In this document: positions 32,501 to 64,000 of the stretch, in pieces
How positions within the stretch are numbered: position 1 is the first letter of the stretch
How the letters are laid out: every line of letters begins with the position of its first letter
Assembly (NCBI GenBank): GCA_017521245.1
Contig: JAFXDI010000001.1
Coordinates: forward strand, 161,178-225,177
Direction: 5' to 3'
Length of the DNA stretch: 64,000 nt
Source of the DNA: Bacteroidales bacterium
GTDB lineage: Bacteria; Bacteroidota; Bacteroidia; Bacteroidales; G3-4614
The notes under the pieces: model-generated
Databases searched by the model: none
Told to the model about the DNA's origin: nothing
What the model saw: only the letters and a program-made list of their open reading frames with translations
Position numbers and translations under genes: made by a program

Positions 32501-34031
32501 GCATCTTAACAATCAAACTCGAAGAGGCATCACTAATGTCAGCCGCAAACTCTCCCACCTGAAATACCTCTCCATTTTTAGTATATTCGTATGCAACAGC
32601 AATAACCTCATCAGCATTTATGCGTTGATTAAGCGAGATATATCCCAATTGAGTGTTAATTGAGTATTCACTTGCTTCAAGACGTCTTGCACTCTCAATC
32701 TTAACATAATCCTTACCACCGCTAATACCATAACTCTCAAGCGGAGCAAGAACTTGTCCAACAAGAGAAATATTACGAGCATCAGGATATGAATTTACAA
32801 TCTCTTTGTAAAGAGTATTAGCATCATTAGCAGGGTTAGCATAACCAGTTGCTTGCCAGTGAGAGTTTGAGATATGCTCTTGTTTCTCCTCTCCCAAATC
32901 AGCAAAAGCAATAAGGTTGCGAGTATTACCATAACTGCTTTTTTTGTTGGTAACCCACACCTCTATGCGGTTGATAGTAACACCCGAAGAGATAAAAGGA
33001 AGTTTAGCAACACTTGTCTCGTAGTTGTCGCGGAAGTTGTGAGCAAGAAAGAAGTGTCTGTTCTCATCATACTTATCAACACCCATTGTAAACTCGGTAA
33101 GTTGAGCGCCATTCTTTGAATTAACCTGTTTTGATTCAGCCTCTTGTTGTGAAGCCAAAGCAGTTAAAGTAAGTTTACCAAATTGAAGTTGAGTTTTAAT
33201 ACCAAACAACGAAGTTCCTCCTTGAATAAGAGAAGAGTTTGTAGTCATGCTTACATTACCCGCTTCAATACTCTTAATTATTTGATCCTCTTCACCCTCG
33301 TATTTTAGGTTAAGTTTTTGAGAGTCAAAACTAAAAGTAGCATCTGTATTGTAGTTCATTGAGAAGTTCAACTTATTACCAACCGAGGCCTTAATGTTAG
33401 CCTGAATCTTCTCATCAAAATCAAAGTAAGTCTTTCTCCTTGCCTCCATTGATAGAGCAGGGTTGTCAGTTTTGTTAGTTTTGATAGCCATCTTCAGTTC
33501 AGCCGATCCTTGAGTAGTAATTCTCACACCACCGGGGCCAAACACTTTATCTAAAGGACCAAGGTTAAACTGCATATCAAAGATATCAAATTTCTTCTTG
33601 CCACCCTTAATATTCTCGTTATTCTTCTCGTGGTAGTATGCCTGCATTGATTTTCTTAAAGAGTAGTCGCCATACTCTTTAGCAGTAAGCATCATAGGAG
33701 TAGAGATCTCCATATCCGCAACACGAGTTTTCATAATATAACACCCAGTTATGGGGTCATACTCAATCTCTGATTTAACATTATCAGGAGTCTTTAAGTC
33801 GGCAGGAGCAACAGTCTCTAAATCTTTGTACTCCTCAATAGTAGTTTTTTTAACAGAAAATCTTGGTTTTTCATGTTTTTGAGGCTGAGGGGAGGGATTA
33901 ACCGAGATAGTATCGGTCGAAATAACCTCTTGAAGTTCGTTAACTCGATTATATGCAGCAAAAGCAGAATAGCATCCTATTCCGCTTATTGCCAATATTG
34001 TGAATATAATCAGTAATCGAATCTTTTTCAT
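26523..34031 (-). CDS. sprA: T9SS outer membrane translon SprA (Sov)
   Basis: 2502 residues, the giant single-chain beta-barrel that is the type IX secretion pore in the outer membrane (Sov in Porphyromonas, SprA in Flavobacterium). Length, N-terminal hydrophobic segment (about 5-27) and the many alternating beta strands through the whole chain fit the family. It ends in a C-terminal strand (YGIAVQLNLSRRE). A Ser/Lys/Ala-rich low-complexity stretch lies at about 1918-1945, between barrel-forming parts. It lies 48 bp downstream of ruvA in the same direction. Its cargo is visible in the same window: the GH85 proteins at 48570-60514 end in T9SS type A sorting domains. It is convergent with the sulfatase gene, with only 45 bp and no obvious terminator between. 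Confidence 0.96.
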   Translation of the reverse strand: MKKIRLLIIFTILAISGIGCYSAFAAYNRVNELQEVISTDTISVNPSPQPQKHEKPRFSVKKTTIEEYKDLETVAPADLKTPDNVKSEIEYDPITGCYIMKTRVADMEISTPMMLTAKEYGDYSLRKSMQAYYHEKNNENIKGGKKKFDIFDMQFNLGPLDKVFGPGGVRITTQGSAELKMAIKTNKTDNPALSMEARRKTYFDFDEKIQANIKASVGNKLNFSMNYNTDATFSFDSQKLNLKYEGEEDQIIKSIEAGNVSMTTNSSLIQGGTSLFGIKTQLQFGKLTLTALASQQEAESKQVNSKNGAQLTEFTMGVDKYDENRHFFLAHNFRDNYETSVAKLPFISSGVTINRIEVWVTNKKSSYGNTRNLIAFADLGEEKQEHISNSHWQATGYANPANDANTLYKEIVNSYPDARNISLVGQVLAPLESYGISGGKDYVKIESARRLEASEYSINTQLGYISLNQRINADEVIAVAYEYTKNGEVFQVGEFAADISDASSSLIVKMLKSTTVMTSEPIWDLMMKNIYSLEAYQIQKDKFKLQIYFRNDTSGTQVTYMSLGDIKGKQLIKVMNLDRLDSKDEPNPDGVFDYVEGYTVTSNKGRIIFPVLEPFGSHLKKMIGGSVPDVDKYIYQELYDSTQTVARQFTDKNKFTLQGEYKASSGNTIQLNSMNVARGSVKVTAGGVTLVENVDYTVDYTMGTVTIINQGYADAGNIKVSLESQEMFNMQRKTLVGLDLNYDFTKNFRVGATIMHMGEKALTEKLTVGNEVINNTIWGVNTSYTTEFQWLTNLFNKIPTVNATAPSKLTINAEFAQLIPSTKQSKAVSYIDDFEYSQSQNDIRLPYAWNLASTPSMFPESKLSNDIAYGKNRALFAWYYIDRLFTQKNSNLTPVHIKNDLDQLSNHYVREVQSSEVFPNRELSYGESSLLQVLNLSFYPTERGPYSLDASNINPDGSLQNPEMRWGGIMRKMDNTDFESANIEYLQFWMLDPFIYDKNNGGYLYFNFGEISEDILKDGKKSFENGLPTDGNNDMVENTVWGKVSRQQSVTYAFDNNSEGRAKQDVGLDGLSSEEERNFGEYKNYVDRLRQVLSQETQQRYSYDQFSPFNDPAGDNYHFYRGADYDDAEYSILERYKRYNGTEANSNSPDDAEDSEYQSSKSVPDVEDINQDNTLDEYERYYQYGIKITPEDLVVGRNYITAEQESAVTLRNGESTTVKWYQFKIPLKEVTGDGSHMPRETVGSIQDFKTIRFARMFMTGFKKEIHLRLASLELVRGDWRSYNLRLHNDDKSGGTTLPAEGDLDVSVVNIEENAGQKPVNYVLPPGVTRIISPDQSQITQLNEQSISLKVTNLPSKNARAIYKTSGLDVRNYERLQMFVHAEKLIDDKTSLKDGEISVFIRVGSDIRSNYYEYEVPLKLTPEGNYNTYNTNDQEAVWPESNMIDFPLALLTEAKKQRNSAKSRGEAGVSFGNPYSIYDPEKKTNRVTVVGNPSISNMESVVIGIRNNSATTKDIIVWVNELRLSGFKQDGGWGFKADANLNISDLATIAGGTHIETAGFGGVDQTLNERRLEDYYQYNFSFVIDAGRFLPEKVKLKAPLYYSYFEERNMPKYNPLDEDVLMSDALEACATETERDSIKNIVLDRSRSRNFSLTGFKFDIQSKNPMPWDPANLTMSYSCNKQDNQSITSTFENSRDRRFNLNYAYTPFVKPWKPFEKLKGKSKHLDTFKEMAINYVPNSITFATNISRMYNEQQERNIENDVTAQIPVSVNKNFYWDRQFSIQWNILRCTNLSFSSMTNAHIDEPSGVVNKALFPDEFKAWKDTVTESILKLGTPWKYNQSFNASITLPLSKSPILDWINLQGSYAATYTWDRGAFIDENTVIGNTISNNAQLGVTGKFNFETLYNKSKYLKEVNRKFSSSSKGSRSSSKKKSSSKSSAAAKKSANKNSFEQKITLSKDSGIVVQHNLDTKKLRIVGRTNEGKLYTLKYKTINKNSIRINNLDSINITVKISRTVPATNKEDSKLYKTGEYLARFAMMLRNVNVQYKQTSSMTLPSFTPGVSDILGQNTATSSLSPGLDFAFGMPGEGYIDKAIDKGWLITNNSSLVSPAIAMISKDLMVDATVEPIKGLKITLTATYSKSNNNQIQFMFDGRPTSRGGNFSMTTVGMQGIFKSMNADKGYQSDNFDNFLAYRDIVAGRIENAYKGVKYPSAKFINDKMLNGKPYDTKNGGVKKTSSDVMIPAFIAAYTGRDASSIELTAFPSMKRILPNWRITYDGLSKLKKMKEHFKSFTFSHAYSCVYSVGSFTSFLNWADAGDGYGFVKDEQTGAPLPSSPYDIGSVVLTESFNPLLGIDMTLRNSVSVRSSYKDSRTVTLNPSSGQIVESSSRELSIGAGYTFVNFKFGKGGSRNAGGFSSDLKLQADISYRTSTALIRKIEEYLTQATSGAKTFSIKISANYAVSRMLTLKAFYDHQINTPLISSTAYPTTDISYGIAVQLNLSRRE

Positions 34032-48347: not shown

Positions 48348-48569
48348 ATGCTTTATGCAAAGTAATAAAATTATCCAAGATAATCTAAAAACAGCGCTTT
48401 TTCTCTGTAAATTATATAATTGTATTGAGTTTTGTTTATAAATGTTTATATATATAATATTTTATGTAAAAAGTTTTATAAACCAAATAAAACATTTATA
48501 TTTGCAATTAATACTATATTGTTTATTGTGACTATATATTAACTAACTATATTTTTACCCAAAAAAACT
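48348..48569 (+). promoter_or_regulatory. Leader region of GH85 copy 1 with -7 box
   Basis: A very AT-rich 222-bp region with no gene. TATATTTG at 48497-48504 is an exact -7 box about 65 bp upstream of the start at 48570. The -33 position (GTTTTATA near 48473) is poor. Confidence 0.55.
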
Positions 48570-51500
48570 ATGAAAAAAAGTTTACTTTTAGTAGCATTGG
48601 CAATATTCCCAATGTTTGCTTATTCTCAATCAGCTCCTCAGCACGAAAAGTATGTGCAAATAGGCTTAGGAGAAGCAGATCGTGCAAATGCTTATGCAGC
48701 ATGGACTCCAGGACAACCTTTTTATAAAGGTTACGGAGAAGATATGGAGGATACCGAGAACTTTAATATTTCTCGTATTAAACCTCGTGAACGTTTTATA
48801 AATGCGGCAACACAAGTTCGTACCGCACAGGATCCTGACCGCAAACTATTATGGTGGTGTCCAATAGGAGGTGACGGATGGAATGCATTATCATCTTATT
48901 TCTTTGGCGGTGAGGTATGGACAATGTGGAGTTATACCGATGTTTGGGGAAACTGGACAGCCCCTCTTTTGAGTATGCCAGCACCTATGCTTGACGTTTG
49001 TCACAAAAATGGTGTAAAAATTTCAAGTTTAGCACCTATTGCATGGTCAGCATATATCTCAACATCAGATGTTAGCGGTTACGGATATTTGTTGAAAAAA
49101 GTTTTAACAGACACAGGGGGAGCAGATAAATTCTTGAAATTCTTAAAATATTATGGAATTGATGGAATTGGATTTAACTCAGAGTTTTCATGGAATGGAA
49201 CATTGTCAGGAGGAAATTATTCTGGACAAGCATTCCATACAGGTATGAAAAACTTTTTGGGAGATTGTTATACAAAAGCAGCTGATTATGGTGTGCCATT
49301 CCATAATTGTTGGTATTCATTAACAACAAATAGCGGTTCTCTTGGAGGTTCGGCATCATTGGATGGAACAAACAGAGACTGGTTTCACTATAATGGAAAA
49401 CCAACATCAACAGTATATTTCTGTAACTATGGTTCAAGCCTTTCAACATCACAAAATACAGTAACATTGAATTTCCCAACTCGTTCTTCATATGATGTTT
49501 ACATGGGAGTTGACTACCAAGCAGGAGGTCCGGTAGGTAACTGGACATCTTTGAATAACTATAAAATCTCAATGGGACTTTGGGGAGCACACAATCGCAA
49601 CCTAATATATGAGACTCGTGGTGAGAGAGGATCGGATCCTGTACAACAACAAAAAACTTACCAAATGATATTGGAGAATGTCTTTACAGGTTCAACTAAA
49701 AACCCAGTTAACCCACCTAATATATCAACAACAACTCGTTTTAATTCAATGTCAACTGACGCTTATGGATGGGCTCAATTCATCACAGCACGCAGTACAT
49801 TGATGTGTCAAGATGGAGGAGATTTATCAACAGATCCATTTGTAACAAACTTCAACTTAGGTAACGGAAAATTCTTTAATGTAGCAGGAGAGCGTAATGC
49901 AGATACTGAATGGTATAATATCGGTATGCAGGATTTTATGCCAACATGGCGTTGGTGGGCAACATCAACTTATATGGGACGTACAGCGGCTGAAGTAAGC
50001 GATGATCTACAATATGAGTTCACTTGGGATGATGCATGGTTAGGGGGTTCATGTTTGCAAATATCAGGAGCAACAGATCAAACATATTTGCAACTATTTA
50101 AAACAAAATACGAAACAGCAAAAAGCGGAGATTATCTAACAATACGTTATAAAGTTCTTTCAGGAACAGGAACATTAGCATGGGCGTGTTCAAAAGAGGG
50201 ATCAGAGACAACTGTTGTAGAAAAAACAATAAGCTCTTCAAAAGTTGATGAAAATGGTTGGACAACAGTAAATACATCAATTGGAGGACGTACAGGTATT
50301 AAACTTGAAAGTTCTACAATTGCACAATTAGGTTTGAAATTTACAGACACATCAGACGACTTCAAAGTCTTAATTGGACAAATAGCTCTTACGAGAGGAA
50401 AACCGGGAACATACCAACAACCTCAAGCTCCAGTAGTAGAGAAAACAAAAATGATGGCTCGTAACTACAAAGGTGTAGATATGATGATTATATTCAATAT
50501 GGATAATGCTTATACAGGTGCAACTAAAGAAGCATGGGAGCCTGTATATAATGCAGATGTAAATACATCTTACTTCCGTATTTACACACAACAAGAGGGT
50601 AAAGAACCCAAAGTTTTCACTGCAACAACATCATGGGCAGCATACGTAGTAGCAGCACCCTATATAACAGAGGATGCAGGTAAAATGCGTATTGGAGTAT
50701 CAGCAGTAGGTTTAGATTATGAAACAGAGTCTCTTATAGCATGGGGTGATTGGATGGAGCCTATGACAATTAATCCTACAATTGTTGAGGGAACAGAAAT
50801 AGATAAACCTATTATCAAAGCAGGAGAAGAATTCACATTGAAATATATCGATGTAAACCATGCACCAGCAACATGGGAGGTAATAAATTCTACAACAGGA
50901 GAGTCGGTTCAAACATTCCCTAACACAAAATCAATTACAATGTCATTGGCTGAAGAGGGATCGTACGATATTAAGATTACAAACCCAGACGCATCAGTTG
51001 CATACACTCGAGGAATTATTCAAGTATCACCAGCGGCAACAGGAGCATTACCAATCATTGCTTCTTTAGATGCAAACAAAACTCAAGCAGAGGTGGATGA
51101 GGTAATATCGTTAAATTATACTGTATCACGTTTAGGAGAGGGAACTGTATCTCGTTCGGTTAAAGTTGAAGACCCCAATATGCTACGCTTCCCTGAAGTA
51201 GTAGGTTCACGTCCTTATACATATATGATGTGGTTTAAGGTTGATAAATTTACACATGGATCAGAGGGAACAAACCTTATAGATAAGAGAAGTTTCAATG
51301 ATGTATGGCCACACAATAACTGGGGTGATATTTGGGTAACAATCCGTTCATATCCACAAGATGGAGGTGCATATCCTCGTTATGAAACAAGTTCATCAGG
51401 AACAGCACAAGCAGATCCTCATCCAGCAAATGAGATATCATTCAATACATACGGCTGGACAGAGCACGATGCACCTAATGCAAATATGATGTCGAACGAT

Positions 51501-52427
51501 CATAGTGTAAACGAAGGACAATGGACACACGTTGCTGTAACATTCGGAACAGACAATAAACAAAAAATGTACTTTAATGGAAAGAAAGTTGCGGAGACTA
51601 CAATTCAACATATAAATAGTAATGGAGTTCGTTCTCCGGGATCGCCAGTTTATATTGGAGGAACAAGTGTTTATAAAGGAGGATACAATGGTTGGGTAGA
51701 TGAATTCCAAGTATGGGATCGTGTATTAAATGAAGATGAGATAAAGACAGCAATGAAAGGATACGCAACAGCACCTGCGGGACTACAAGGATATTGGACA
51801 TTTGAAGAGATTGTAAAAGATGCTAACGGTAACAATGTATTCCCGAACAAAGGACAAAAAGGTTCAGGATACAATGCTGCAATTATTACAACTGTTGGTC
51901 AAAAAGGAGAGAACACTTCAGAAGTTGTACAAACAGTAGTAAATGGATCAAATGATGAATTGGGTAACCCAATGATTGGAGGAAGCTATCAAGTAACAAC
52001 ATCCGCAGAGTGGACAGCTCCGGGAGCCTCACTTAATGTATCTTCAACATCAGCAAATGTTGTATATGATGCAGCAGGTACATATACAGCAGGTCTTACA
52101 CTTAAAAATATGTGGGGTAGCGACAACAAAACTATTGATTTCGTAGTGGTGTCTAACCTTGACGGAATTGAGGATGCAACAATTGAGGAGATGGGAGTAT
52201 ATCCTAATCCATTTACCGATTTTGTTAACCTATGTTTCTCAAATGAGGGAACATATACGATAGAGATTGTAGCCCTTGATGGTAAATTGATAGAAAGCAA
52301 ACAAATCAATGTATCAGCAAACGAGGGAGTACGTCTTGATGTCAATGGAGAAAAAGGAATGTACATTATTAAAGTATTGAATGCAAACAAAGCAGCAGTT
52401 CGCACATTGAAAGTGGTGAAAAAATAA
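48570..52427 (+). CDS. GH85 endo-beta-N-acetylglucosaminidase, LamG and T9SS sorting domains (copy 1)
   Basis: 1285 residues. The signal peptide is MKKSLLLVALAIFPMFAYSQ. A GH85-type catalytic region (about 25-475) carries WWCPIGGDGWN (95-105), WTMWSYTDVWGNWTAP, LDVCHKNGVKIS and YYGIDGIGFNSEFSW, whose Asn203-x-Glu205 pair matches the oxazoline-stabilising Asn and acid/base Glu of the family. FVTNFNLGNGKFF (about 424) and PTWRWW are further GH85 hallmarks. These enzymes cut the chitobiose core of N-glycans. After it come a jelly-roll-like part (483-620), an Fn3/Ig-like part (620-735), a PKD-like part (736-850), a LamG-like domain (about 880-1075), and a type A sorting domain from MGVYPNPFTDFVNL (about 1207) to the end. 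It is exported by T9SS to the surface. It has its own promoter box and terminator. Confidence 0.85.
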   Translation: MKKSLLLVALAIFPMFAYSQSAPQHEKYVQIGLGEADRANAYAAWTPGQPFYKGYGEDMEDTENFNISRIKPRERFINAATQVRTAQDPDRKLLWWCPIGGDGWNALSSYFFGGEVWTMWSYTDVWGNWTAPLLSMPAPMLDVCHKNGVKISSLAPIAWSAYISTSDVSGYGYLLKKVLTDTGGADKFLKFLKYYGIDGIGFNSEFSWNGTLSGGNYSGQAFHTGMKNFLGDCYTKAADYGVPFHNCWYSLTTNSGSLGGSASLDGTNRDWFHYNGKPTSTVYFCNYGSSLSTSQNTVTLNFPTRSSYDVYMGVDYQAGGPVGNWTSLNNYKISMGLWGAHNRNLIYETRGERGSDPVQQQKTYQMILENVFTGSTKNPVNPPNISTTTRFNSMSTDAYGWAQFITARSTLMCQDGGDLSTDPFVTNFNLGNGKFFNVAGERNADTEWYNIGMQDFMPTWRWWATSTYMGRTAAEVSDDLQYEFTWDDAWLGGSCLQISGATDQTYLQLFKTKYETAKSGDYLTIRYKVLSGTGTLAWACSKEGSETTVVEKTISSSKVDENGWTTVNTSIGGRTGIKLESSTIAQLGLKFTDTSDDFKVLIGQIALTRGKPGTYQQPQAPVVEKTKMMARNYKGVDMMIIFNMDNAYTGATKEAWEPVYNADVNTSYFRIYTQQEGKEPKVFTATTSWAAYVVAAPYITEDAGKMRIGVSAVGLDYETESLIAWGDWMEPMTINPTIVEGTEIDKPIIKAGEEFTLKYIDVNHAPATWEVINSTTGESVQTFPNTKSITMSLAEEGSYDIKITNPDASVAYTRGIIQVSPAATGALPIIASLDANKTQAEVDEVISLNYTVSRLGEGTVSRSVKVEDPNMLRFPEVVGSRPYTYMMWFKVDKFTHGSEGTNLIDKRSFNDVWPHNNWGDIWVTIRSYPQDGGAYPRYETSSSGTAQADPHPANEISFNTYGWTEHDAPNANMMSNDHSVNEGQWTHVAVTFGTDNKQKMYFNGKKVAETTIQHINSNGVRSPGSPVYIGGTSVYKGGYNGWVDEFQVWDRVLNEDEIKTAMKGYATAPAGLQGYWTFEEIVKDANGNNVFPNKGQKGSGYNAAIITTVGQKGENTSEVVQTVVNGSNDELGNPMIGGSYQVTTSAEWTAPGASLNVSSTSANVVYDAAGTYTAGLTLKNMWGSDNKTIDFVVVSNLDGIEDATIEEMGVYPNPFTDFVNLCFSNEGTYTIEIVALDGKLIESKQINVSANEGVRLDVNGEKGMYIIKVLNANKAAVRTLKVVKK

Positions 52428-52447
52428 TAATAAATACAATCTACAAT

Positions 52448-52482
52448 AAAATAAGGGAGATGGGTCATCTCCCTTATTTTGT
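52448..52482 (+). terminator. Terminator of GH85 copy 1
   Basis: A perfect 14-bp stem (AAAATAAGGGAGAT and its complement) with loop GGGTC, ending in a T-rich tail. Confidence 0.92.
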
Positions 52483-52584
52483 TTTATATCTTAATTTCTT
52501 GTGTGGTATATAAAATTCTAATATATTATAAGTTAAAAAAGAGATTATATTGATAAATAATGTTATAATATAAAAAAAACTCCC

Positions 52585-52592
52585 TATATTTG
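52585..52592 (+). promoter_or_regulatory. -7 box of GH85 copy 2
   Basis: TATATTTG, exact to consensus, about 54 bp upstream of the start at 52646. The TTTG element is not evident. Confidence 0.6.
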
Positions 52593-52645
52593 CACTATTA
52601 AAGTAAAATAATATTTAATAAAACATAAAACAAAACTATTTAAAA

Positions 52646-55600
52646 ATGAAAAAGGGATTACTAATTGCAACATTAGGTATGCTATTGCCAATGTTTGCTT
52701 ATTCGCAATCATGTCCCCAGCATGAACAATATGTAAAAATAGGATCAGAAACAGTAAATTGGGGAGATGCTTATGCGGCTTGGTCTCCAGGTAGAGCATT
52801 CTATCAAGGACTTGATACAGAGGCAGAGGAGAATGAAAACTTCACTATTTCTCGTGTAAAACCACGTCAAAGATTTACTAATGCACAAACCCAAGTTCGT
52901 CCCGAACAAAACTCAGACCGCAAACTATTGTGGTGGTGTCCCATAGGAGGAGACGGATGGAACGCATTAGCATCATACTATTTTGGCGGAGAACTTTGGA
53001 CAATGTGGAGTTATACCGATATATATGGAAACTGGACCGCTCCTTTTGTAAGTGTGCCAGCACCGATGCTTGACGTATGCCACAAAAACGGAGTACAAAT
53101 ATCATGTCTTGCGGCAGTACCATGGTCGGCAAATATCTATTGTACAGATGCAAGCGGGCATGGGTATTATTTAAATAAATTAGTATCCGATGCAGGCGGA
53201 GCAGATAAATTCCTAAAATATTTGAAATACTATGGAATTGATGGAATAGGATTTAATTCAGAGTTCTCATGGCGAGGAACATTAAGCGGGTCAGGACCAT
53301 ATTCAGGTTACGAGTTTCACACAGCAATGAAAAAATTTTTAGGAGATTGCTATACAGGAGCATCAGAGTACGGTGTGCCATTTCATAACTGTTGGTATTC
53401 GTTAACAAACAATTCTGGATTTTGCGGAGGTTCATCAGCATTGAATGAAAACAATAAAGATTGGTTCGATTACGAAGGAAAACCAACATCAACAGCATAC
53501 TTTACAAACTACTATGCTGCACCATCACATTCACAAACATGTGTCGATAACTATTTCCCAAATCGTTCATCATACGATGTATATATGGGAGTTGACTATC
53601 AAGCAGGATACTCATTGCAAAACTGGTTAATACTACCCAATTATAGAATTTCATTAGGATTATGGGGTGCGCACAATCGAAATATGATATATGAGCAACG
53701 CGGTGAGAGAGGATCAACACCATTGCAAATGCAACAAACATATATGAAAATAGTGGAGAATGTATTTACAGGATCAAGCAATAACCCTGTAAACCCTCCA
53801 GCAATGTCAGAGACAACCAAATTTAATTCAACAGCAGAAGATGCTTGGGGTTGGGCTCAATTAATAACAGCACGCAGTACATTGATGTGTCAAGAAGGAA
53901 GAAACCTATCAACCGATCCATTTGTAACAAACTTCAATTTAGGTAACGGATTCTTCTTTAACGTAGAAGGAGAACGTCATGCCAATACCGAATGGTACAA
54001 CCTTGGAATACAAGACTTTTTGCCAACTTGGCGTTGGTGGTTTACCAAAACATATATGGGAAGAACAGCAGAAGAGGTAAGTGATGACTTAAAAGCAGAG
54101 TTTACTTGGGACGATGCATGGTTCGGAGGTTCATGTTTGCAAATATCAGGAGGAACAGATAAAACATATTTGCAACTTTTCAAAACCAAATACGAAGTAA
54201 AACAAAACGACTATCTAACAATCCGTTATAAAGTTTTATCCGGAACAGGATCAATGGCATGGGCATGTTCAGAGTGGGATGCCGCATCAATTGAAGTTTC
54301 AAAAGATATTAAAACAAATGCCGATCCAGATGAAAACGGATGGATAACAGTTGAGACACCCATTGGTGGACGTTCAGGAATAAAACTTAACGATAAAGTG
54401 ATAGCACAGATAGGTTTAAAATTCCAAAATACCAGTGATGATTATAAAGTATTAATCGGACAAGTCTCATTAACTCGTGGTAAAGTAGGAAATTCAAATA
54501 GACCATTAGCACCAACAGTAGAGAAGAGTCGTATGATGGCTCGTAACTACAAAGGAGTAGATATGAAGATTATCTACAATATGAATGATGCATATTCAGG
54601 CGAGGCAAAAAAAGCATGGGAGCCTATATATAATAACGAAGTAGAAACATCGTATTTCCGTATCTACACCCAACAAGAAGGAGAAGAAGCAAAAGTGTTT
54701 ACAGGAACAACCTCTTGGGCATCATACGTAGTAGCAGCACCTTACGATGCAGTAAAAGGTGGAGGTTTGCGTATTGGAGTAGCGGCAGTAAGTTTAGATT
54801 ATGAAACAGAGTCAGAAATTGCATGGGGCGAGTGGTTGTATCCAACAACAATTGAACCAACAATTGTTGAGGGAACAGAAATAGACAAACCAATAATCAA
54901 AGTAAACGAAGAATTTACATTGAAATATACCGATCCAAACCATGCCGCAGCAACATGGGAGGTAATAAATTCTCTAACAGGAGCATCAATACAAACATTT
55001 ACAAATACAACATCAATCACAATGTCGTTACCAACAACAGGATCATACGATATTAAGATAACAAACTCAGACGGAACAGTGGCATACACTCGAGGAATTA
55101 TCCAGGTATCACCCGATGAAACAGGAGCAATACCCGTTATTGGCTCTCTAACAGCAAATAAAACACAAGCCTATAAAGATGATAATATAACACTAACAGC
55201 AACAACATCTCGTTTAGGCGAAGGATCAGTATCACGAGCTGTAAAAGTAGAAGATCCAAATATGTTACGTTTCCCCGCAGTAGTACAATCACGTCCATAT
55301 ACCTATATGATGTGGTTCAAAGCAGAAAAACTAACACATAACAATCAAGGAACAAACTTGATAGACAAAAGAGATATTGAAGATATGTGGCCTCATGGAA
55401 ACTGGGGAGACTTCTGGGTAACAATACGTCCCGAGATGATGGCAAACAGAGAGGTTGGAGGAAGTACATATTCAGACAGAGTACACCCGGCAAATGAAAT
55501 ATCATTCAATACATATGGTTGGACAGAGCATGATGTCCCCAACAGCAATATGATGTCAAACGACCATAGTGTAAAAGAGGGACAGTGGACACACATTGCG

Positions 55601-56479
55601 GTAACATTTGAAACAGATGGAAAACAAAAAATGTATTTCAATGGTAAGAAAGTTGCCGAAACAACAACAAATAAAATTACAACTAACGGTGTTCGTAAAA
55701 GTGAAAGTAATGTATATGTAGGAGGCTCAAATGTTTACAAAGCAGGTTTTAATGGCTGGGTAGATGAATTCCAAGTATGGGATCGAGTATTAACAGATAC
55801 AGAGATACAAACTGCAATGAAGGGATACACAACCGCACCAAACGGATTACAAGGATATTGGACATTTGAAGAGACAACAGAAGAAGGCGGAAATGTTGTA
55901 TTCCTAAATAAAGGTAATAAAGGAGCATCATATACAGCAGCATATATAACAATGAAAGATACAGATGCTGGAAAAGTAGAGCAAAATCTTCCATTCTCTC
56001 CCAATGAGTTAGGAAATCCAATGATTACAGGAGCTGTAAAGGTAACAACCGAGCAAGAGTGGAATTTACCAAGTGCAACAGTTGTAGGTCAAACAGATAC
56101 TAAATCAATAATCTCATACAATGCAACAGGAACATACACCGCTGGATTAACCCTTAAAAATATGTGGGGAAGTGATACAGAGGTTGTAGATATAGTAGTA
56201 GTTCCATGGCCTGATGGAGTAGAGGAGTCAGTAATAGAGGAGATGGGAGTATATCCTAATCCATTTACCGATTTTGTTAACCTTTCATTTGCAAAAGAGG
56301 GAACATATACAATTGAGATTATAGCCCTTGATGGTAAATTGATAGAGAGTAAACAAGTAAGTGCCACAGCAAATGAGTATGTTCGCGTTGATATTAATGG
56401 AGAAAAAGGAATGTATATCATTAAAATCAAGAACACAAGCGGAACAGCAGTTCGTACTTTGAAGTTAATCAAGAAGTAG
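52646..56479 (+). CDS. GH85 endo-beta-N-acetylglucosaminidase, LamG and T9SS sorting domains (copy 2)
   Basis: 1277 residues, collinear with copy 1. The signal peptide is MKKGLLIATLGMLLPMFAYS. Catalytic pair Asn204-x-Glu206 lies in GIGFNSEFSW. WWCPIGGDGWN (96-106), SYTDIYGNWTAP, FVTNFNLGNGFFF and PTWRWW are all kept. The LamG-like region begins PYTYMMWFKAEK and ends near GYWTFEE. The sorting domain starts MGVYPNPFTDFVNL and ends VRTLKLIKK. Copies 1, 2 and 4 are more alike than any is to copy 3. The DNA of its sorting domain shares a 47-base identical run with copy 1 (56237-56283 and 52185-52231). It probably cleaves N-glycans at the cell surface, with specificity unknown. Confidence 0.85.
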   Translation: MKKGLLIATLGMLLPMFAYSQSCPQHEQYVKIGSETVNWGDAYAAWSPGRAFYQGLDTEAEENENFTISRVKPRQRFTNAQTQVRPEQNSDRKLLWWCPIGGDGWNALASYYFGGELWTMWSYTDIYGNWTAPFVSVPAPMLDVCHKNGVQISCLAAVPWSANIYCTDASGHGYYLNKLVSDAGGADKFLKYLKYYGIDGIGFNSEFSWRGTLSGSGPYSGYEFHTAMKKFLGDCYTGASEYGVPFHNCWYSLTNNSGFCGGSSALNENNKDWFDYEGKPTSTAYFTNYYAAPSHSQTCVDNYFPNRSSYDVYMGVDYQAGYSLQNWLILPNYRISLGLWGAHNRNMIYEQRGERGSTPLQMQQTYMKIVENVFTGSSNNPVNPPAMSETTKFNSTAEDAWGWAQLITARSTLMCQEGRNLSTDPFVTNFNLGNGFFFNVEGERHANTEWYNLGIQDFLPTWRWWFTKTYMGRTAEEVSDDLKAEFTWDDAWFGGSCLQISGGTDKTYLQLFKTKYEVKQNDYLTIRYKVLSGTGSMAWACSEWDAASIEVSKDIKTNADPDENGWITVETPIGGRSGIKLNDKVIAQIGLKFQNTSDDYKVLIGQVSLTRGKVGNSNRPLAPTVEKSRMMARNYKGVDMKIIYNMNDAYSGEAKKAWEPIYNNEVETSYFRIYTQQEGEEAKVFTGTTSWASYVVAAPYDAVKGGGLRIGVAAVSLDYETESEIAWGEWLYPTTIEPTIVEGTEIDKPIIKVNEEFTLKYTDPNHAAATWEVINSLTGASIQTFTNTTSITMSLPTTGSYDIKITNSDGTVAYTRGIIQVSPDETGAIPVIGSLTANKTQAYKDDNITLTATTSRLGEGSVSRAVKVEDPNMLRFPAVVQSRPYTYMMWFKAEKLTHNNQGTNLIDKRDIEDMWPHGNWGDFWVTIRPEMMANREVGGSTYSDRVHPANEISFNTYGWTEHDVPNSNMMSNDHSVKEGQWTHIAVTFETDGKQKMYFNGKKVAETTTNKITTNGVRKSESNVYVGGSNVYKAGFNGWVDEFQVWDRVLTDTEIQTAMKGYTTAPNGLQGYWTFEETTEEGGNVVFLNKGNKGASYTAAYITMKDTDAGKVEQNLPFSPNELGNPMITGAVKVTTEQEWNLPSATVVGQTDTKSIISYNATGTYTAGLTLKNMWGSDTEVVDIVVVPWPDGVEESVIEEMGVYPNPFTDFVNLSFAKEGTYTIEIIALDGKLIESKQVSATANEYVRVDINGEKGMYIIKIKNTSGTAVRTLKLIKK

Positions 56480-56502
56480 AATAAACTTAAATAATAATCA
56501 AT

Positions 56503-56536
56503 AAAAGGGTTACACGTTAAAAGTGTAGCCCTTTTT
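56503..56536 (+). terminator. Terminator of GH85 copy 2
   Basis: A 13-bp stem AAAAGGGTTACAC / GTGTAGCCCTTTT (one wobble), loop GTTAAAA, then Ts. Confidence 0.9.
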
Positions 56537-56576
56537 ATTATTTAAACTAAAATTAAATAAATTATAACATAAACAA

Positions 56577-56608
56577 TTTGTAAAAACAAATAAAAATAAA
56601 TAATTTTG
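56577..56608 (+). promoter_or_regulatory. Promoter of GH85 copy 3
   Basis: TTTG (56577-56580), 20 bp, TAATTTTG (56601-56608): a full Bacteroidetes consensus with ideal spacing. It gives a leader of about 110 nt. Confidence 0.78.
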
Positions 56609-56722
56609 TAATTGGAGTATAGCGTACTAAGAATAGTATGGTCTTTTTCAATTATTCCAAAGTGCATATACTTAAAAAATAGGAGTTTGATCATAAATAC
56701 ATTCTTTAAATAAAATTTATAA

Positions 56723-59700
56723 ATGAAAAAATTACTATTGATGACTTTGGTCATTGCAATGTACGCAGGAAGCGTATTTGCACAAACAGTACCATCTCAC
56801 GACAAGTATGTTAAGATGGGAAGTTCTATTAGTTGGTATCAAGCATACCAAAATTGGGAGCCGGGAGTCCCATTGTATAATGGCGATTCAGAAGCAGCTG
56901 CAAACGAGCAATTCTTTATTTCTCGTGTAAAACCTCGTAAACGTTTTACATTTACTGCAACACAAGTAAAAGAGAGTCTTGATCCAGAACGTAAAGTTTT
57001 ATGGTGGTGTCCAATAAACGAATCATCGTGGAATGCACTTCCATCATACTTCTTCAATGGAGAGGCATACTCAATGTGGAGTTATACCGATACATACGGA
57101 AACTGGACAGCACCATTAATCCAAGTACCAGCAGCCTTCCTTGATGTATGTCATAAAAATGGAGTACGTTCAGGATGTGTAGCATCAGTACCATTTGGAG
57201 CAGGTCCATCACCAAATGATGGAGGTCACGGATCAAACATCAATGCCCTTGTAAATGGTGGATATGAGAAATTGCTTAAATACCTTCGTTACTATGGTGT
57301 AGATGGAATAGGATTTAACTCAGAGTTCTCATGGAGCCTTTTGAATCCAACAGGTTTCAAAAATATGATGGGAGATTGTTATGCAAATGCTGAGGCTTAC
57401 GGAGTGCCATTTAACAATGCATGGTATTCATTTACTTCAAATGGAGGAAGTTACGGAGATTATAGTGTACTTAATAGTGGATGTGTAGAGTGGTTCCACT
57501 ATAATGGGAAAAAAGTATCAGATGCATACTTCTTGAACTATAACTGGTATTCATCTCAATTATCTACATCACAAACAACAGCCGAAGGAAAAGGTCGCTC
57601 AGGATATGATGTATATGGAGGAATGGACTTTCAAGGTCGTTCATCAGCATCATGGGTGGCACTACAAGATTACAAAGTATCATTTGGTATTTGGGGAGCC
57701 CACAACACTAATATGATTTTTATTAATCAAGGAGAAAATGGATCAACTCCTGTTCAAAAACAACTAACTTACCAAAAAATTAGTGAGAACGTATTTACAG
57801 GAGCATCATATAACCCGGTAAACACACCTCCAGTAACAAATCTATTATGTCATACTTCAAAATCAACAACGTTCCACGGATTTTCAAGTTTCATTACAGC
57901 TCGTAGTACCTTAACACCTCAAGATGGAGGAAGTTTGGCAACAGACCCATTTGTTACATATTTCAATATGGGTAACGGACAATTCTGGAAAGAGAATGGC
58001 GAAATTGCATATAATGGAGTATGGTATAATCTAGGAATGCAAGACTATTTGCCCACATGGCGTTGGTGGTGGACTAGTACCTTTATGGGTAAAGATGCAA
58101 CAGAGGCAACAACCGATATGGAGGCAGTATTTAATTGGAATGACTCATGGTATGGCGGAACATCTTTAGAAATTAACGGAGAAACAGACCAAGCATATTT
58201 GCAACTCTTCAAAACAAAATACCCAACAAATACAACAGGAGATTATTTAACAATTCGTTATAAAGTGCTTTCAGGAACAGGAAAAATCTCTTGGGCATGT
58301 TCAAAAGAGTCTGCACCTAAAACTGAGGTGTCAGCGTCTATCGCAAATATCACATCAAGCACAGAAATAGGAAAATGGGTTGAAAAACAAATTCAGATAA
58401 CCAGCGGACGTAATGGTATAAAATTACAAAACGATGTTATATGTCTATTAGGATTAAAATTTGAGGATACATCATCTGATTTCAAAGTGCTTATTGGTGA
58501 GATAGCATTAACAAGAGGAAAACCCGGAGTTATAGCAGCACCTTCAGCACCAAAAATTTTATCATCAAAGGTTCTTTCATATAACTATAAAGGAGCTGAC
58601 GTAAAAGTTGTATTTGATATGACAAGCAATGATACAAAAGCAGCTGGACGTCAAGCCTACCAAACTATCTATAATAGTGATGTAAACACTTGGTTCTACA
58701 AAATATATGTACGTCAAGCAGGAGGAGAGCCAAAACTTTGTACCTCAACAACATCATGGGCATCATATGTTGTAGCAGCCCCATACGATGCAGAGTTAGG
58801 AGGTAAAATACAAGTAGGAGTAAGTGCAGTAAGTTTAGATGGACGAAAAGAATCTACAATTGCGTGGGGACAAGAGATGTCATTGCCAGCACCAGTAATT
58901 ATAGAAGGAACAGAGGTTGACAAACCAGTAATCAAACCAAACGAAGAGTTCTCGGTTAAATTTGTTGATCCCAACCATCAAAAAGCAACTTGGACTATAA
59001 TAAGCTCAGCAACAGGAGAGACAGTTAAAACCGTTAATAATGCATCAGGAGTAACAACATCCCTTCCAGAAGTAGGAATGTATGACGTTAAGATTACATC
59101 AGGATCAAATGAGTCATACACTCGTGGATTAATTCAAATATCTCCAGAGAGTACAGGAACAATACCTTTAATTGAATCTCTGACAGCAGATAAAACATCT
59201 GCAAATACAAATGAAAAAATCAATTTGTCATACATAGCAGAACGATTAGGCGAAGGTAAAGTATCGCGTAGTGTTAAAGTAGATGATCCATATATGTTGC
59301 GATTCCCTTCATTGAAAGGAACAGCACCATATACCTATATGATGTGGTTTAAAACAGAGTCTATATCTCACGACACACAAGGAACTAACCTTATAAGCAA
59401 AACAACATTTACAGATGTATGGCCACATGAGAACTGGGGAGACTTCTGGGTACAAATAAGACCTAAAGTTACAGCTCATTCTGTTTCATATACAGCTGCA
59501 AACGAGCATGCTGAAAATGAGATATCGTTTAATGTATATGGATGGGATGCTCACGATGTACCACGTGATGGTATGATGTCAACAGGATATAGCGTAAACC
59601 TTGACCAATGGACACACATTGCAATAACATTAGATACAGATGGAAGCGAAAAAATGTATTTCAATGGACGTCTTGTTGCATCATCAAAAGACTACGAAGT

Positions 59701-60514
59701 TGAGAATAACGGACAAAGAATGAATGGAGATGTATATATTGGAGGAGCAGGAACATATAAAGCAGGATTTACAGGTTGGATTGATGATTTCCAAGTATGG
59801 GATCGAGTATTAACAGATTCTGAGGTTAAGACAGCAATGAAAGGATATGCAACAGGAGCAACAATTCCAAGCGGATTATTAGGATACTGGGACTTTGAAA
59901 CACTCGAAAGTGATGGAGAATCATTTGCTAACCGTGGAACCGCAGGTGCTACCAAGTATGCTCAATATGTAGAGAAGATAACAGGAAACGGACCAGCATA
60001 TTGCGAGACAAGAGCCGTAAATAACGAACAGTTGGGTATGCCAATTCTTCATGGAACATTAGAGGTTAAAACATCTGCAAAATGGGATGTCGCACCCGGA
60101 ACATTAACAGATAAAGGAGGAACACTTGCAGCAGGAACCGTTAATGTATCATATTCAGCAGAGGGACAATATACTCCAAAACTAACTCTTGAGAATATGT
60201 GGGGTAGTGATAGCAAGACAATAGATTTCATAACCGTAACTACCGGTTCAGGATTAGAGGATGCCGTAGTTGAGGAGATGGGCGTATATCCTAACCCATT
60301 CACCGATTTTGTAAATATTATGTTTACACAAGAGGGTGTGTACACCGCTCAAATAGTTGCACTTGACGGACGCTTAATAGAGTCAAAAGCATTGTCAGTT
60401 GCAGCAAATGAGGGAGTAAGAGTAGATATTAACGGAGAAAGTGGAGCATACATCTTACGTATTCTAAATGAAAACGGAGTAGCAGTTCGTACAATGAAGA
60501 TTATCAAAAAATAA
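56723..60514 (+). CDS. GH85 endo-beta-N-acetylglucosaminidase, LamG and T9SS sorting domains (copy 3, divergent)
   Basis: 1263 residues. The signal peptide is MKKLLLMTLVIAMYAGSVFA. The layout and catalytic pair (Asn199-x-Glu201 in GIGFNSEFSW) are kept, but this is the most different copy. The substrate-loop motif CPIGGDGWN of the others reads CPINESSWN (97-105). The stretch after the catalytic pair is shorter (SLLNPTGFKNMMG, without the SGxYSGxxFHT segment), and FVTNF is FVTYF. These changes lie around the active-site cleft, so its glycan preference may differ. The sorting domain is MGVYPNPFTDFVNIMF...VRTMKIIKK. It has the best promoter of the array and its own terminator. Confidence 0.84.
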   Translation: MKKLLLMTLVIAMYAGSVFAQTVPSHDKYVKMGSSISWYQAYQNWEPGVPLYNGDSEAAANEQFFISRVKPRKRFTFTATQVKESLDPERKVLWWCPINESSWNALPSYFFNGEAYSMWSYTDTYGNWTAPLIQVPAAFLDVCHKNGVRSGCVASVPFGAGPSPNDGGHGSNINALVNGGYEKLLKYLRYYGVDGIGFNSEFSWSLLNPTGFKNMMGDCYANAEAYGVPFNNAWYSFTSNGGSYGDYSVLNSGCVEWFHYNGKKVSDAYFLNYNWYSSQLSTSQTTAEGKGRSGYDVYGGMDFQGRSSASWVALQDYKVSFGIWGAHNTNMIFINQGENGSTPVQKQLTYQKISENVFTGASYNPVNTPPVTNLLCHTSKSTTFHGFSSFITARSTLTPQDGGSLATDPFVTYFNMGNGQFWKENGEIAYNGVWYNLGMQDYLPTWRWWWTSTFMGKDATEATTDMEAVFNWNDSWYGGTSLEINGETDQAYLQLFKTKYPTNTTGDYLTIRYKVLSGTGKISWACSKESAPKTEVSASIANITSSTEIGKWVEKQIQITSGRNGIKLQNDVICLLGLKFEDTSSDFKVLIGEIALTRGKPGVIAAPSAPKILSSKVLSYNYKGADVKVVFDMTSNDTKAAGRQAYQTIYNSDVNTWFYKIYVRQAGGEPKLCTSTTSWASYVVAAPYDAELGGKIQVGVSAVSLDGRKESTIAWGQEMSLPAPVIIEGTEVDKPVIKPNEEFSVKFVDPNHQKATWTIISSATGETVKTVNNASGVTTSLPEVGMYDVKITSGSNESYTRGLIQISPESTGTIPLIESLTADKTSANTNEKINLSYIAERLGEGKVSRSVKVDDPYMLRFPSLKGTAPYTYMMWFKTESISHDTQGTNLISKTTFTDVWPHENWGDFWVQIRPKVTAHSVSYTAANEHAENEISFNVYGWDAHDVPRDGMMSTGYSVNLDQWTHIAITLDTDGSEKMYFNGRLVASSKDYEVENNGQRMNGDVYIGGAGTYKAGFTGWIDDFQVWDRVLTDSEVKTAMKGYATGATIPSGLLGYWDFETLESDGESFANRGTAGATKYAQYVEKITGNGPAYCETRAVNNEQLGMPILHGTLEVKTSAKWDVAPGTLTDKGGTLAAGTVNVSYSAEGQYTPKLTLENMWGSDSKTIDFITVTTGSGLEDAVVEEMGVYPNPFTDFVNIMFTQEGVYTAQIVALDGRLIESKALSVAANEGVRVDINGESGAYILRILNENGVAVRTMKIIKK

Positions 60515-60539
60515 TCATACTTGTTAAACAACATAGTCA

Positions 60540-60574
60540 AAGAAGGAATCTCTTGTTAGAGGTTCCTTCTTTTT
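60540..60574 (+). terminator. Terminator of GH85 copy 3
   Basis: A 12-bp stem AGAAGGAATCTC / GAGGTTCCTTCT (one wobble) around TTGTTA, followed by Ts. Confidence 0.9.
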
Positions 60575-60614
60575 ATATATTTCCTTAATAATGGTATAAT
60601 TATCTAAAAAATAT

Positions 60615-60622
60615 TATCTTTG
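60615..60622 (+). promoter_or_regulatory. -7 box of GH85 copy 4
   Basis: TATCTTTG, exact to consensus, 35 bp upstream of the ATG at 60657. Confidence 0.6.
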
Positions 60623-60656
60623 CAATAGATACCATAAAAACAAAAAACAGAGATAT

Positions 60657-63600
60657 ATGAAAAAGGTCTTATCTATTGTAGTCGCACTATTATTACCAAT
60701 ATGTGTATACTCACAATCATCACCTCAGCATGAAATGTATGTGAAAATAGGTTCAGAGAGTGCAACATGGACCGATGCCTACACAAATTGGACTCCAGGA
60801 AATACATCATTATATCAAAATCTTGATGATGAAGCTGCCGAGAATGAACAATTTTTTATATCTCGCGTAAAACCGCGTACACGATTTACAAACTCTTTTA
60901 CACAAGTAAGAATATCTCAAATACCAGATCGAAAATTCTTATGGTGGTGTCCAATTGGTGGAGATGGATGGAATGCACTACCATCATACTTCTTTGGTGG
61001 TGAAGTATGGACAATGTGGAGTTACACCGATATATGGGGAAACTGGACAGCGCCCTTTATGAGTATGCCAGCAGCAATGCTTGACGTATGTCACAAAAAT
61101 GGAGTAAAAATATCGTGTGTAGCCCCTATTACTTGGGCGTCCTATTTATCTCCAACATCAGAAGGATATGGCGAGATGCTTGCCCGAATGTTGATTGATG
61201 GTCCGGATAAGTTTCTTAAGTACCTTAAATATTATGGAATTGATGGAATAGGATGGAACTCAGAGTTTGATTTTAGTCGAACAAAACTAATGTCAGGTCC
61301 ATATATAGGAAAAGAATTTCATACAGCAACAAAACTATTTTTTGGAGACCTCTATGAAAAAGCCGAAACATACGGAGTACCTTTCCATAATTGTTGGTAT
61401 TCGATGATACATAATTTAGGAACAATGCCATCACCCTCACCACTCTCAGAAACAAACAAAGATTGGTTTCATTACAATGGTAGGCCTACATCAACGGTGT
61501 ATTTTACGAACTATGGAGCAGATCTATCAGTATCTCAAGAGACGCATGCTGCTAACTTTCCAGAACGTTCACTATTCGATGTATTTATGGGAGTGGATTA
61601 TCAGGCAGGAACAGCACTAAAAGAGTGGAAACAATTAAACAATTATAACATATCTTTAGGAATATGGGGAGCCCATAATCGCAATATGATATATGAGCAA
61701 CGCGGAGAACGAGGGTCAACACCACTTCAAATGCAAAAGACATATCAAGAATTGCTTGAGACCGTATTTACAGGTTCATCAGGTAATCCTGTAAATCCTC
61801 CGGCAATAAACAGTTATACAAAATTCAGCACTACCTCAACCGATGCCTACGGATGGGCACAATATATAGTAGCAAAAAGTGTACTAACCTGTGATGATTT
61901 AGCAGCCGATCCCTTTGTAACAAACTTCAATTTAGGAAACGGAACCTTCTTTAATATAGCAGGAGAACGTCATGCAGATACAGAGTGGTATAATATAGGA
62001 ATACAAGACTATATGCCCTCATGGCGTTGGTGGGCAACCAGTACCTATATGGGAAGAACCGCTGAAGAGGTTAGCAATGATTTAACCGCTGAATTTACAT
62101 GGGATGATGCTTGGTTTGGAGGTTCATGTTTACAAATATCAGGAGCAACAGAGCAAACCTATTTGCAACTCTTTAAAACAAAATACCCAACAGCAAAATC
62201 TGGCGATTATTTAACAATACGCTATAAAGTCTTGTCAGGAACAGGAACAATGGCATGGGCATGTTCAAAAGAGGGAGATGAGGCAACAGCCGTAGAGAGA
62301 GTGATAAAAACAAATGCAACAGTTGAGAGTGGCGATGAAGATGCGAATGGCTGGGTAACCCTAAGCACACAACTCAGTGGACGACAATTCAAACTAAATA
62401 GTTCTACCATAGCACAAATAGGTTTGAAATTTACCAATACAACCGAAGACTTTAAAATTTTAATAGGACAAATAGCACTCACACGAGGCGAATTAGGAAG
62501 TTCGCTAATTCCTGCCACTCCAGTTGTTGATAAAGTAAAACTGATGGCTCGTAACTATAAGGGAGTAGATATGAAGATAATCTTCAATATGGCAGATGCT
62601 TATACAGGAGAACCCAAAGAGGCATACGAGCCAATATACAATTCCGATGTAAATACCTCCCACTATCGTATCTATACCCAGCAAGAGGGTAAAGAAGAAA
62701 AAGTCTTTACAGCAACAACCTCATGGGCATCGTACGTTGTTGCAGCACCTTACGACACCAAATTGGGCGGAGGTTTGCGTATAGGAGTATCAGCAGTAAG
62801 TCTTGACGGAGAGCAAGAGAGTGATATAGCGTGGGGAGAATGGCTATATCCAATGAATATCCAAGCAACAATAGTAGAGGGAACAATAATAGACAAACCA
62901 ATAATAAAAGTAAACGAAGAGTTTACAATTAAATATATTGATATAAATCACCCAGCTGCAACATGGGAGATAATAAACTCGGCAACAGGAGCATCTATAA
63001 AAACATTTGCAAACACAACATCAATAACCCTATCATTGCCAACCGAGGGCTCATACGATGTTAAAATTACAAATGCTGATGGTACAGTAGCCTACACACG
63101 AGGTATAATACAAGTATCGCCAATAAACACAGGAGCAATACCGGTTTTAACATCACTGACAGCAAATAAATCAGAAGCTTATAAAGAAGATGATATAACA
63201 CTTTCATATACAGCATCGCGAGTAGGAGAGGGAACAGTATCACGCTCGGTAAAGGTTGAAGATCCAAATATGCTACGCTTCCCTGAAGTTGTAGGTTCAA
63301 GACCATACACATATATGATGTGGTTTAAAGCCGACAACTTAACGCACAATAGTCAAGGAACAAACCTGATAGACAAACGCAGTTTTACGGAGTCATGGCC
63401 ACACAATAACTGGGGTGATTTTTGGGTGACAATCCGTCCCGAGCAGATGGCACTAAAAGAGACAAGTGCAACATCAACAACCAATGATAAAAAACATTCA
63501 GCCAATGAAATATCGTTTAATACATACGGATGGACAGAACACGATCTACCCAATTCTCAAATGATGTCAACAGACCACAGTGTAAACGAAGGTCAATGGA

Positions 63601-64000
63601 TACACATAGCAGTAACATTTGGCGTGGATAATAAGCAAAAAATGTATTTCAACGGAAAGAAAGTAGCTGAAACAACAATCCAGCATATAACCAACAATGC
63701 AGTGAGGGTTGCAGGAAGTAGCGTATATGTTGGAGGAACAAGTGTATATAAGAGTGGATTTAATGGCTGGGTAGATGAATTCCAAGTATGGGATAGAGTT
63801 TTGACTGATGTTGAGATACAGACAGCTATGAAAGGATATAACATCGTCCCGAGTGGATTACAAGGATATTGGAATTTTGAAACAACTCAAGAGAATAGCG
63901 AAGGTAAAAAAGTGTTCCCAAATTTAGGACAAAAAGGCTCATCTTATGTAGCAGAGTTGGTATCTACAATAGGAGAAGAGAATGGCGATTCAGGAATAGT
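60657..64000 (+). CDS. GH85 endo-beta-N-acetylglucosaminidase with LamG domain (copy 4, 3' end outside window)
   Basis: The reading frame opens at ATG 60657 (MKKVLSIVVALLLPICVYSQ signal peptide) and runs without a stop to the right edge: 1114 codons are visible. Catalytic pair Asn201-x-Glu203 lies in GIGWNSEFDFSR, with Trp in place of the Phe of the other copies before the Asn. WWCPIGGDGWN (96-106), WTMWSYTDIWGNWTAP, FVTNFNLGNGTFF and PSWRWW (PTWRWW in the other copies) are present. The LamG-like region (PYTYMMWFKADN...GWVDEFQVWDRVL...GYWNFET) is complete. The expected sorting domain would lie just past the edge. It is most like copies 1 and 2. Confidence 0.84.
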   Translation, partial: MKKVLSIVVALLLPICVYSQSSPQHEMYVKIGSESATWTDAYTNWTPGNTSLYQNLDDEAAENEQFFISRVKPRTRFTNSFTQVRISQIPDRKFLWWCPIGGDGWNALPSYFFGGEVWTMWSYTDIWGNWTAPFMSMPAAMLDVCHKNGVKISCVAPITWASYLSPTSEGYGEMLARMLIDGPDKFLKYLKYYGIDGIGWNSEFDFSRTKLMSGPYIGKEFHTATKLFFGDLYEKAETYGVPFHNCWYSMIHNLGTMPSPSPLSETNKDWFHYNGRPTSTVYFTNYGADLSVSQETHAANFPERSLFDVFMGVDYQAGTALKEWKQLNNYNISLGIWGAHNRNMIYEQRGERGSTPLQMQKTYQELLETVFTGSSGNPVNPPAINSYTKFSTTSTDAYGWAQYIVAKSVLTCDDLAADPFVTNFNLGNGTFFNIAGERHADTEWYNIGIQDYMPSWRWWATSTYMGRTAEEVSNDLTAEFTWDDAWFGGSCLQISGATEQTYLQLFKTKYPTAKSGDYLTIRYKVLSGTGTMAWACSKEGDEATAVERVIKTNATVESGDEDANGWVTLSTQLSGRQFKLNSSTIAQIGLKFTNTTEDFKILIGQIALTRGELGSSLIPATPVVDKVKLMARNYKGVDMKIIFNMADAYTGEPKEAYEPIYNSDVNTSHYRIYTQQEGKEEKVFTATTSWASYVVAAPYDTKLGGGLRIGVSAVSLDGEQESDIAWGEWLYPMNIQATIVEGTIIDKPIIKVNEEFTIKYIDINHPAATWEIINSATGASIKTFANTTSITLSLPTEGSYDVKITNADGTVAYTRGIIQVSPINTGAIPVLTSLTANKSEAYKEDDITLSYTASRVGEGTVSRSVKVEDPNMLRFPEVVGSRPYTYMMWFKADNLTHNSQGTNLIDKRSFTESWPHNNWGDFWVTIRPEQMALKETSATSTTNDKKHSANEISFNTYGWTEHDLPNSQMMSTDHSVNEGQWIHIAVTFGVDNKQKMYFNGKKVAETTIQHITNNAVRVAGSSVYVGGTSVYKSGFNGWVDEFQVWDRVLTDVEIQTAMKGYNIVPSGLQGYWNFETTQENSEGKKVFPNLGQKGSSYVAELVSTIGEENGDSGI

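Follow-up and report, generated by a model that had tools for sequence, protein, structure and literature searches.

Four consecutive GH85 endoglycosidase genes with type IX secretion sorting tails in a Caccoplasma genome

The GH85 enzymes characterised so far act exclusively on N-glycans (PMC10154615). Among them, Endo HS cleaves complex N-glycans and not high-mannose ones; its Tyr282Phe variant is nearly inactive, and Endo A and Endo D have Phe at that position (PMC12961652). In Endo A, the gatekeeper residues are W216 and W244 (PMC2646837). Different glycan classes have been demonstrated for three Tannerella GH85s (Takashima 2020, in the account given by PMC10154615), and BT1285 and BT3987 of B. 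thetaiotaomicron, together with two Alistipes enzymes, act on the same glycan with differing accessibility or pH (PMC11180146). Among the papers searched, none was found on GH85 in Caccoplasma, the genus considered here.

The locus lies in a stretch of 64,000 nucleotides (the window; bases 161178–225177 of contig C1) of a Caccoplasma genome of 2.09 Mb in 54 contigs, 99.7% complete; NCBI assigns this genus to Bacteroidales. The organism is a small gut bacterium, kin to Candidatus Caccoplasma; its relatives in the genus are Candidatus Caccoplasma merdipullorum and metagenome-assembled genomes from the cecum or rectum of water buffalo, goat and water deer, and the closest record found was SIG122 (97% identity in the query protein). 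According to the window ORF list and the profile search, four consecutive ORFs, all on the + strand, encode GH85 endo-beta-N-acetylglucosaminidases. Copy A (48570..52427, 1285 aa) has a putative signal peptide, the GH85 TIM barrel and beta domains at about 20–740, then an Ig-like region, LamG (921–1059), PKD and a T9SS tail (1210–1285). Its catalytic residues by alignment are N203, E205 and Y249, with an Endo-HS-type Y287. Copy B (52646..56479, +, 1277 aa, with its T9SS tail) and copy C (56723..60514, +, 1263 aa) repeat this architecture. Copy D (60657..64000, +) is interrupted by the window edge with its LamG inside; in the contig it is complete (L008:834-4679, 1281 aa), ending 502 bases past the window, and its sorting tail is found there. 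The signal peptides, assigned by eye, are Lys-rich hydrophobic starts ending in AYSQ, VFAQ or VYSQ.

The array comprises exactly four genes, bounded upstream by plsC and a tRNA and downstream by an SDR gene, and its neighbours are housekeeping genes. Directly beside it we found no SusC/SusD pair, transporter or exoglycosidase, the components of an N-glycan polysaccharide utilization locus (PUL). Elsewhere in the window, a 1568-aa protein with a ricin-type lectin and InlB-type repeats is encoded at 11188–15894, and a small secreted-looking ORF (97–123 aa) at 45895–46221 (−) recurs at L012:15856-16149. The latter is retained next to GH85 sites by several species (at the corresponding place in L019, L020, L023, L024, L078, L087 and L089), has a conserved hydrophobic tail, P-[IV]-x-ES-I-LG-L-GLGG, with a basic end, and is without a match in Pfam or NCBIfam.

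Profile, motif and fold data show that the four array genes belong to the GH85 family, with the predicted fold and the catalytic residues in place. PF03644 was matched in A–D at 64–74 bits (E 9e-18 to 1e-20; cut-off 22.2) by the genome profile search, on which these calls rest because a plain hmmscan against Pfam and NCBIfam failed to detect the family in three of the four copies. Its only PF03644 report was for copy C, so ordinary annotation could miss A, B and D. The motifs NSEF, FVTxFNxGNGxF and P[TS]WRWW, from which the sequence-only reading had recognised four consecutive GH85 genes, are present and conserved across the genus, and N-S-E is invariant in 43 of 43 aligned copies. The catalytic-region profile of these 43 copies matched the PDB sequences of Endo HS (4e-55), Endo A (2e-35) and Endo D (2e-30); N203/E205/Y249 align with N171/E173/Y205 of Endo A and N216/E218/Y252 of Endo HS. 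Modelled with AlphaFold (AF2; pLDDT 83.7), copy A has the TIM barrel and two beta domains of the GH85 fold. Its best 13 matches among PDB folds are all GH85 structures (E about 1e-34 or better, the 14th standing at 2e-9), with TM-scores by query length of 0.64–0.73 to GH85 structures and at most 0.25 to the other listed matches. The earlier family assignment was thus borne out by profile, model and residue alignment alike. So were the LamG domains, found by domain scan, and the type A tails of the three complete copies, to which the fourth copy adds its own past the window. The fold search with the C-terminal half gave partial lectin-type matches only (best 4dqa, TM 0.31), and its matches to toxin-binding domains share the lectin-type fold. 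In another genome of the set, a divergent GH85 paralogue (L088:1225-4956, G004:C37) has lost the catalytic Tyr (VWLDL) and kept N-S-E; it is a possible pseudoenzyme.

As for the substrate, Tyr occupies the Endo HS 282 position (Y287) in all four array copies and aligns in all 43, one divergent copy having a changed loop there, and in our alignment both Endo A gatekeeper Trp are replaced in the array. The latter suggests weaker transglycosylation. The Endo-HS-type Tyr287 together with the loss of both gatekeepers would make complex-type N-glycans the likelier substrate, albeit at about 20% identity. At that level of identity to characterised GH85 enzymes, the glycan class is not confidently readable from sequence.

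The tails point to type IX secretion. TIGR04183 was matched at 40–49 bits in A–C and PF18962 in A–D, and of 31 Por_Secre_tail matches across the genome, 9 are GH85 tails. The window also encodes the outer-membrane translocon sprA/sov (26523..34031, −; TIGR04189, 2685 bits; PF14349), and the genome has PorX and PorK/L/M/N/P as well. From these components we infer that A–D are exported by this system, including the SprA encoded in the window. Among the other proteins with T9SS tails are a GH95 and a GH2 beta-galactosidase, the latter encoded downstream of the array at a distance of about 23 kb, and a gingipain-like C25 peptidase (L109:4232-5800, contig C4), which is a possible partner in glycoprotein breakdown.

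Each gene appears to have its own transcription signals. Copy A is preceded by a promoter-like motif, TATATTTG (48497..48504, +), that matches the Bacteroidota-type -7 consensus, and is followed by a strong intrinsic terminator (52445..52483, +). Consensus matches likewise precede B (TATATTTG, 52585..52592, +), C (TAATTTTG, 56601..56608, +) and D (TATCTTTG, 60615..60622, +), and strong intrinsic terminators follow B (56503..56535, +) and C (60539..60572, +). Across six species, all 16 gaps contain a stable hairpin past the stop (z −3.4 to −9.2), with stems that vary in sequence between species, and all 16 contain a TAnnTTTG motif, where 2.3 would be expected. With a terminator and a promoter-like motif in each gap, an operon was rejected, and the likeliest reading is that each gene is transcribed as a unit of its own. 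Between D and the SDR gene there are 23 bases and no terminator; the D transcript may be read through into that gene.

Two expectations of the sequence-only reading, concerning the genomic setting, had to be revised. First, the lack of SusCD and exoglycosidases that it noted is true of the surroundings of the array and not of the genome, which carries a GH20-GH20-MFS-GH130-GH92 cluster, four GH92 genes (one in that cluster and one in a GH2-GH92 pair), three sialidase-type BNR_2 matches over the cut-off, three GH29 genes and three SusD genes away from the array. The GH130 protein is closest to Uhgb_MP (3e-155), and enzymes that cleave Man-beta-1,4-GlcNAc occur in three families, GH130 among them (PMC10154615). 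With GH20, GH130, GH92, GH2, sialidases and GH29 present elsewhere, an array without any catabolic pathway was rejected. The exoglycosidases, phosphorylase and SusD elsewhere indicate a dispersed catabolic pathway, not a stand-alone stripping system; the proposed dedicated surface system for N-glycoproteins accordingly stands as to its GH85 enzymes and T9SS tails, and not as to its self-sufficiency. The sialidases, fucosidases and GH2 enzymes may serve mainly for mucin O-glycans.

Second, the GH85 family is indeed unusually large, though not of the size supposed. A protein search of the genome returned 19 places, the last four LamG-only. Nine GH85 N-termini (A, B, C, D, two on contig C33, and C13, C36 and C46) and ten C-termini (A–D, C33, C13, C36, C38, C53 and C54) were found; C36 and C53, which share 129 identical bases where they overlap, probably carry parts of a single gene. 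The genome thus has at least nine GH85 genes, probably ten, instead of four. Contigs break inside GH85 genes, an effect of near-identical repeats on short-read assembly. On contig C54 (L015:1-3825), the GH85 C-terminal part is followed by LamG, InlB-type repeats, Big_2 and a DUF6383 end that replaces the usual PKD and sorting tail. With at most five candidates scored per genome, GH85 was found in 26 of the 392 surveyed Bacteroidales genomes with a completeness of 90% or more, at one to four each outside the genus, and in 23 of 392 genomes of a phylum sample, where this genome alone had more than three. All eight genomes of the genus, which also make up the family-level survey, have four to seven by profile. 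The expectation of one or two copies per genome is a poor guide here, as several GH85-bearing Bacteroidales carry three or four matches, numbers that are not rare among them. Moreover, Prevotella sp. oral taxon 299 (NC_022111.1) was matched six times by profile and carries, at 1148–1199 kb (L117, L119), no fewer than seven GH85-like ORFs, so that clusters occur outside the genus; multi-copy GH85 as a feature unique to Caccoplasma was rejected on both grounds. With 9–10 GH85 genes in 2.1 Mb, against one to four matches in the GH85-bearing Bacteroidota genomes sampled outside the genus, the genome shows a strong sign of N-glycoprotein specialisation, and the bacterium appears to specialise in removing N-glycans from host or dietary proteins.

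The array is shared across the genus. The order A-B-C-D beside plsC was seen directly in four species (G000, G002, G004 and G005), and G006 and G003 are consistent with it but split across contigs; G000, G002 and G006 have the SDR gene after D. In G001 and G007 the plsC site holds a single GH85 copy. The tree groups A, B and D together and places C in a separate clade. With dN/dS of 0.05–0.21 between orthologues and 0.18–0.36 between paralogues, the array copies are held by purifying selection.

Taken together, we consider it probable that T9SS-exported GH85s release N-glycans at the cell surface for dispersed catabolism, and that the array consists of diverged paralogues under purifying selection. 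A–D would leave the cell via type IX secretion, act at its surface and hydrolyse the GlcNAc-beta-1,4-GlcNAc core bond of N-glycoproteins in a substrate-assisted reaction, in which Asn203 would orient the 2-acetamido group, Glu205 serve as acid/base and Tyr249 assist. The freed glycans would be trimmed by sialidases, GH2, GH20 and GH92 to Man-beta-1,4-GlcNAc for the GH130 phosphorylase. Duplications within a single genus would have enlarged the array, which would since have stabilised as a set of four paralogues, conserved, diverged and each with its own transcript, retained most likely because their substrate preference or conditions of action differ. The array points to N-glycan catabolism outside PULs, of a kind that surveys based on PULs would overlook.

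A functional difference between the copies is likely from their sequences: 34 barrel sites differ between copies yet are fixed within orthologues across species. Copy C, of the other sub-clade, has different active-site loops (NYNW.SS), lacking the 215–222 loop and having a longer one after Tyr287, and copy D has Trp202 and Phe208. These differences, and the Tannerella GH85s as PMC10154615 describes them, make it plausible that each copy is tuned to a glycan class. A division in which A–D cut high-mannose, biantennary, multi-antennary and core-fucosylated types has, in our estimate, slightly under an even chance. However, of the positions within residues 95–474 that are fixed in each of the four groups, just one (288 G/Y) distinguishes A from B. 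Their near-identity there is what one would expect if the copies cut the same glycan under different conditions, differing in pH, stability or site accessibility and expressed from their own promoters, as the separate terminators and promoter-like motifs would allow. Such tuning has equal precedent in BT1285/BT3987 and the two Alistipes enzymes (PMC11180146), but the loops lining the active site do differ in C and D, and we regard this second division as possible, if doubtful.

The duplicates might instead have been kept for enzyme amount, or have come and gone by neutral birth-and-death, homogenised by gene conversion and without specialisation. Paralogues on C36 and C38 share about 87–99% identity over about 1 kb, falling then to 52–86%, and the tracts common to paralogues outside the array reach up to 97–99%; D of G002 has a dS of 0.97 where its neighbours have 0.13–0.16, which suggests a replaced allele. 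Together, these observations suggest gene conversion between paralogues, with the reservation that assembly overlaps of 141 bases are common to contig ends, and conversion counts against complete functional separation. Even so, synonymous divergence among A–D exceeds 1 and the identity of each copy persists across species under purifying selection; retention for dosage or by drift is therefore unlikely. Less likely still, and speculative, is a recombining repertoire made up of the array together with its dispersed relatives, in which separately regulated surface GH85s swap catalytic segments by gene conversion and generate new N-glycan specificities against varied hosts; if true, it would be the enzyme analogue of antigenic or receptor diversification. 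That the GH85 domains are mainly lectins, or act on another beta-GlcNAc substrate such as chitin or peptidoglycan, is very improbable: LamG-type domains occur on every copy and the L088 relative is without the catalytic Tyr, but the catalytic residues are intact in A–D and characterised GH85s keep to N-glycans.

The preferred reading, surface release of N-glycans by exported GH85s, can be set beside the described systems. Endo HS (PDB 9x1i; from human saliva) shares GH85 domains I–III, the catalytic Asn/Glu/Tyr, the extra Tyr (Tyr282) and a T9SS-type C-terminal domain (PMC12961652); it differs in being only about 20% identical and a single gene, as opposed to the family here. A further difference lies in the region that joins domain III to the sorting domain: Endo HS carries a jelly-roll domain IV there, the array copies carry Ig-like, LamG and PKD domains, and the 50 best fold matches listed for the C-terminal part of the array copies do not include 9x1i. 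Endo A (3fha) and Endo D (2w91) are alike in fold and catalytic residues but have Phe at the Tyr287 position, and the Endo A gatekeepers Trp216/Trp244 are missing from the array copies. BT3987 and BT1285 are likewise surface endo-beta-N-acetylglucosaminidases of gut Bacteroidales; they are, however, GH18 enzymes within PULs (PMC11180146), whereas the array is GH85, T9SS-tailed and without a local PUL.

Closest in multiplicity are two sets from other Bacteroidales. The Tannerella trio, by its description in PMC10154615, also represents several GH85 enzymes in oral Bacteroidales, with three characterised enzymes across Tannerella species against 9–10 genes in one genome here. In Prevotella sp. 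oral taxon 299, multiple GH85-like genes lie close together, some with T9SS-like tails by eye, but these copies fall in several distant GH85 groups while the Caccoplasma copies included in the tree form one clade. With catalysis conserved and loops varying, the 43 aligned copies offer a natural series in which the determinants of GH85 glycan specificity could be tested directly; they would also add to the tools available for releasing glycans from native proteins. Compared with these known systems, the type of enzyme is familiar; the extent of its expansion and the gene-by-gene layout are unusual.
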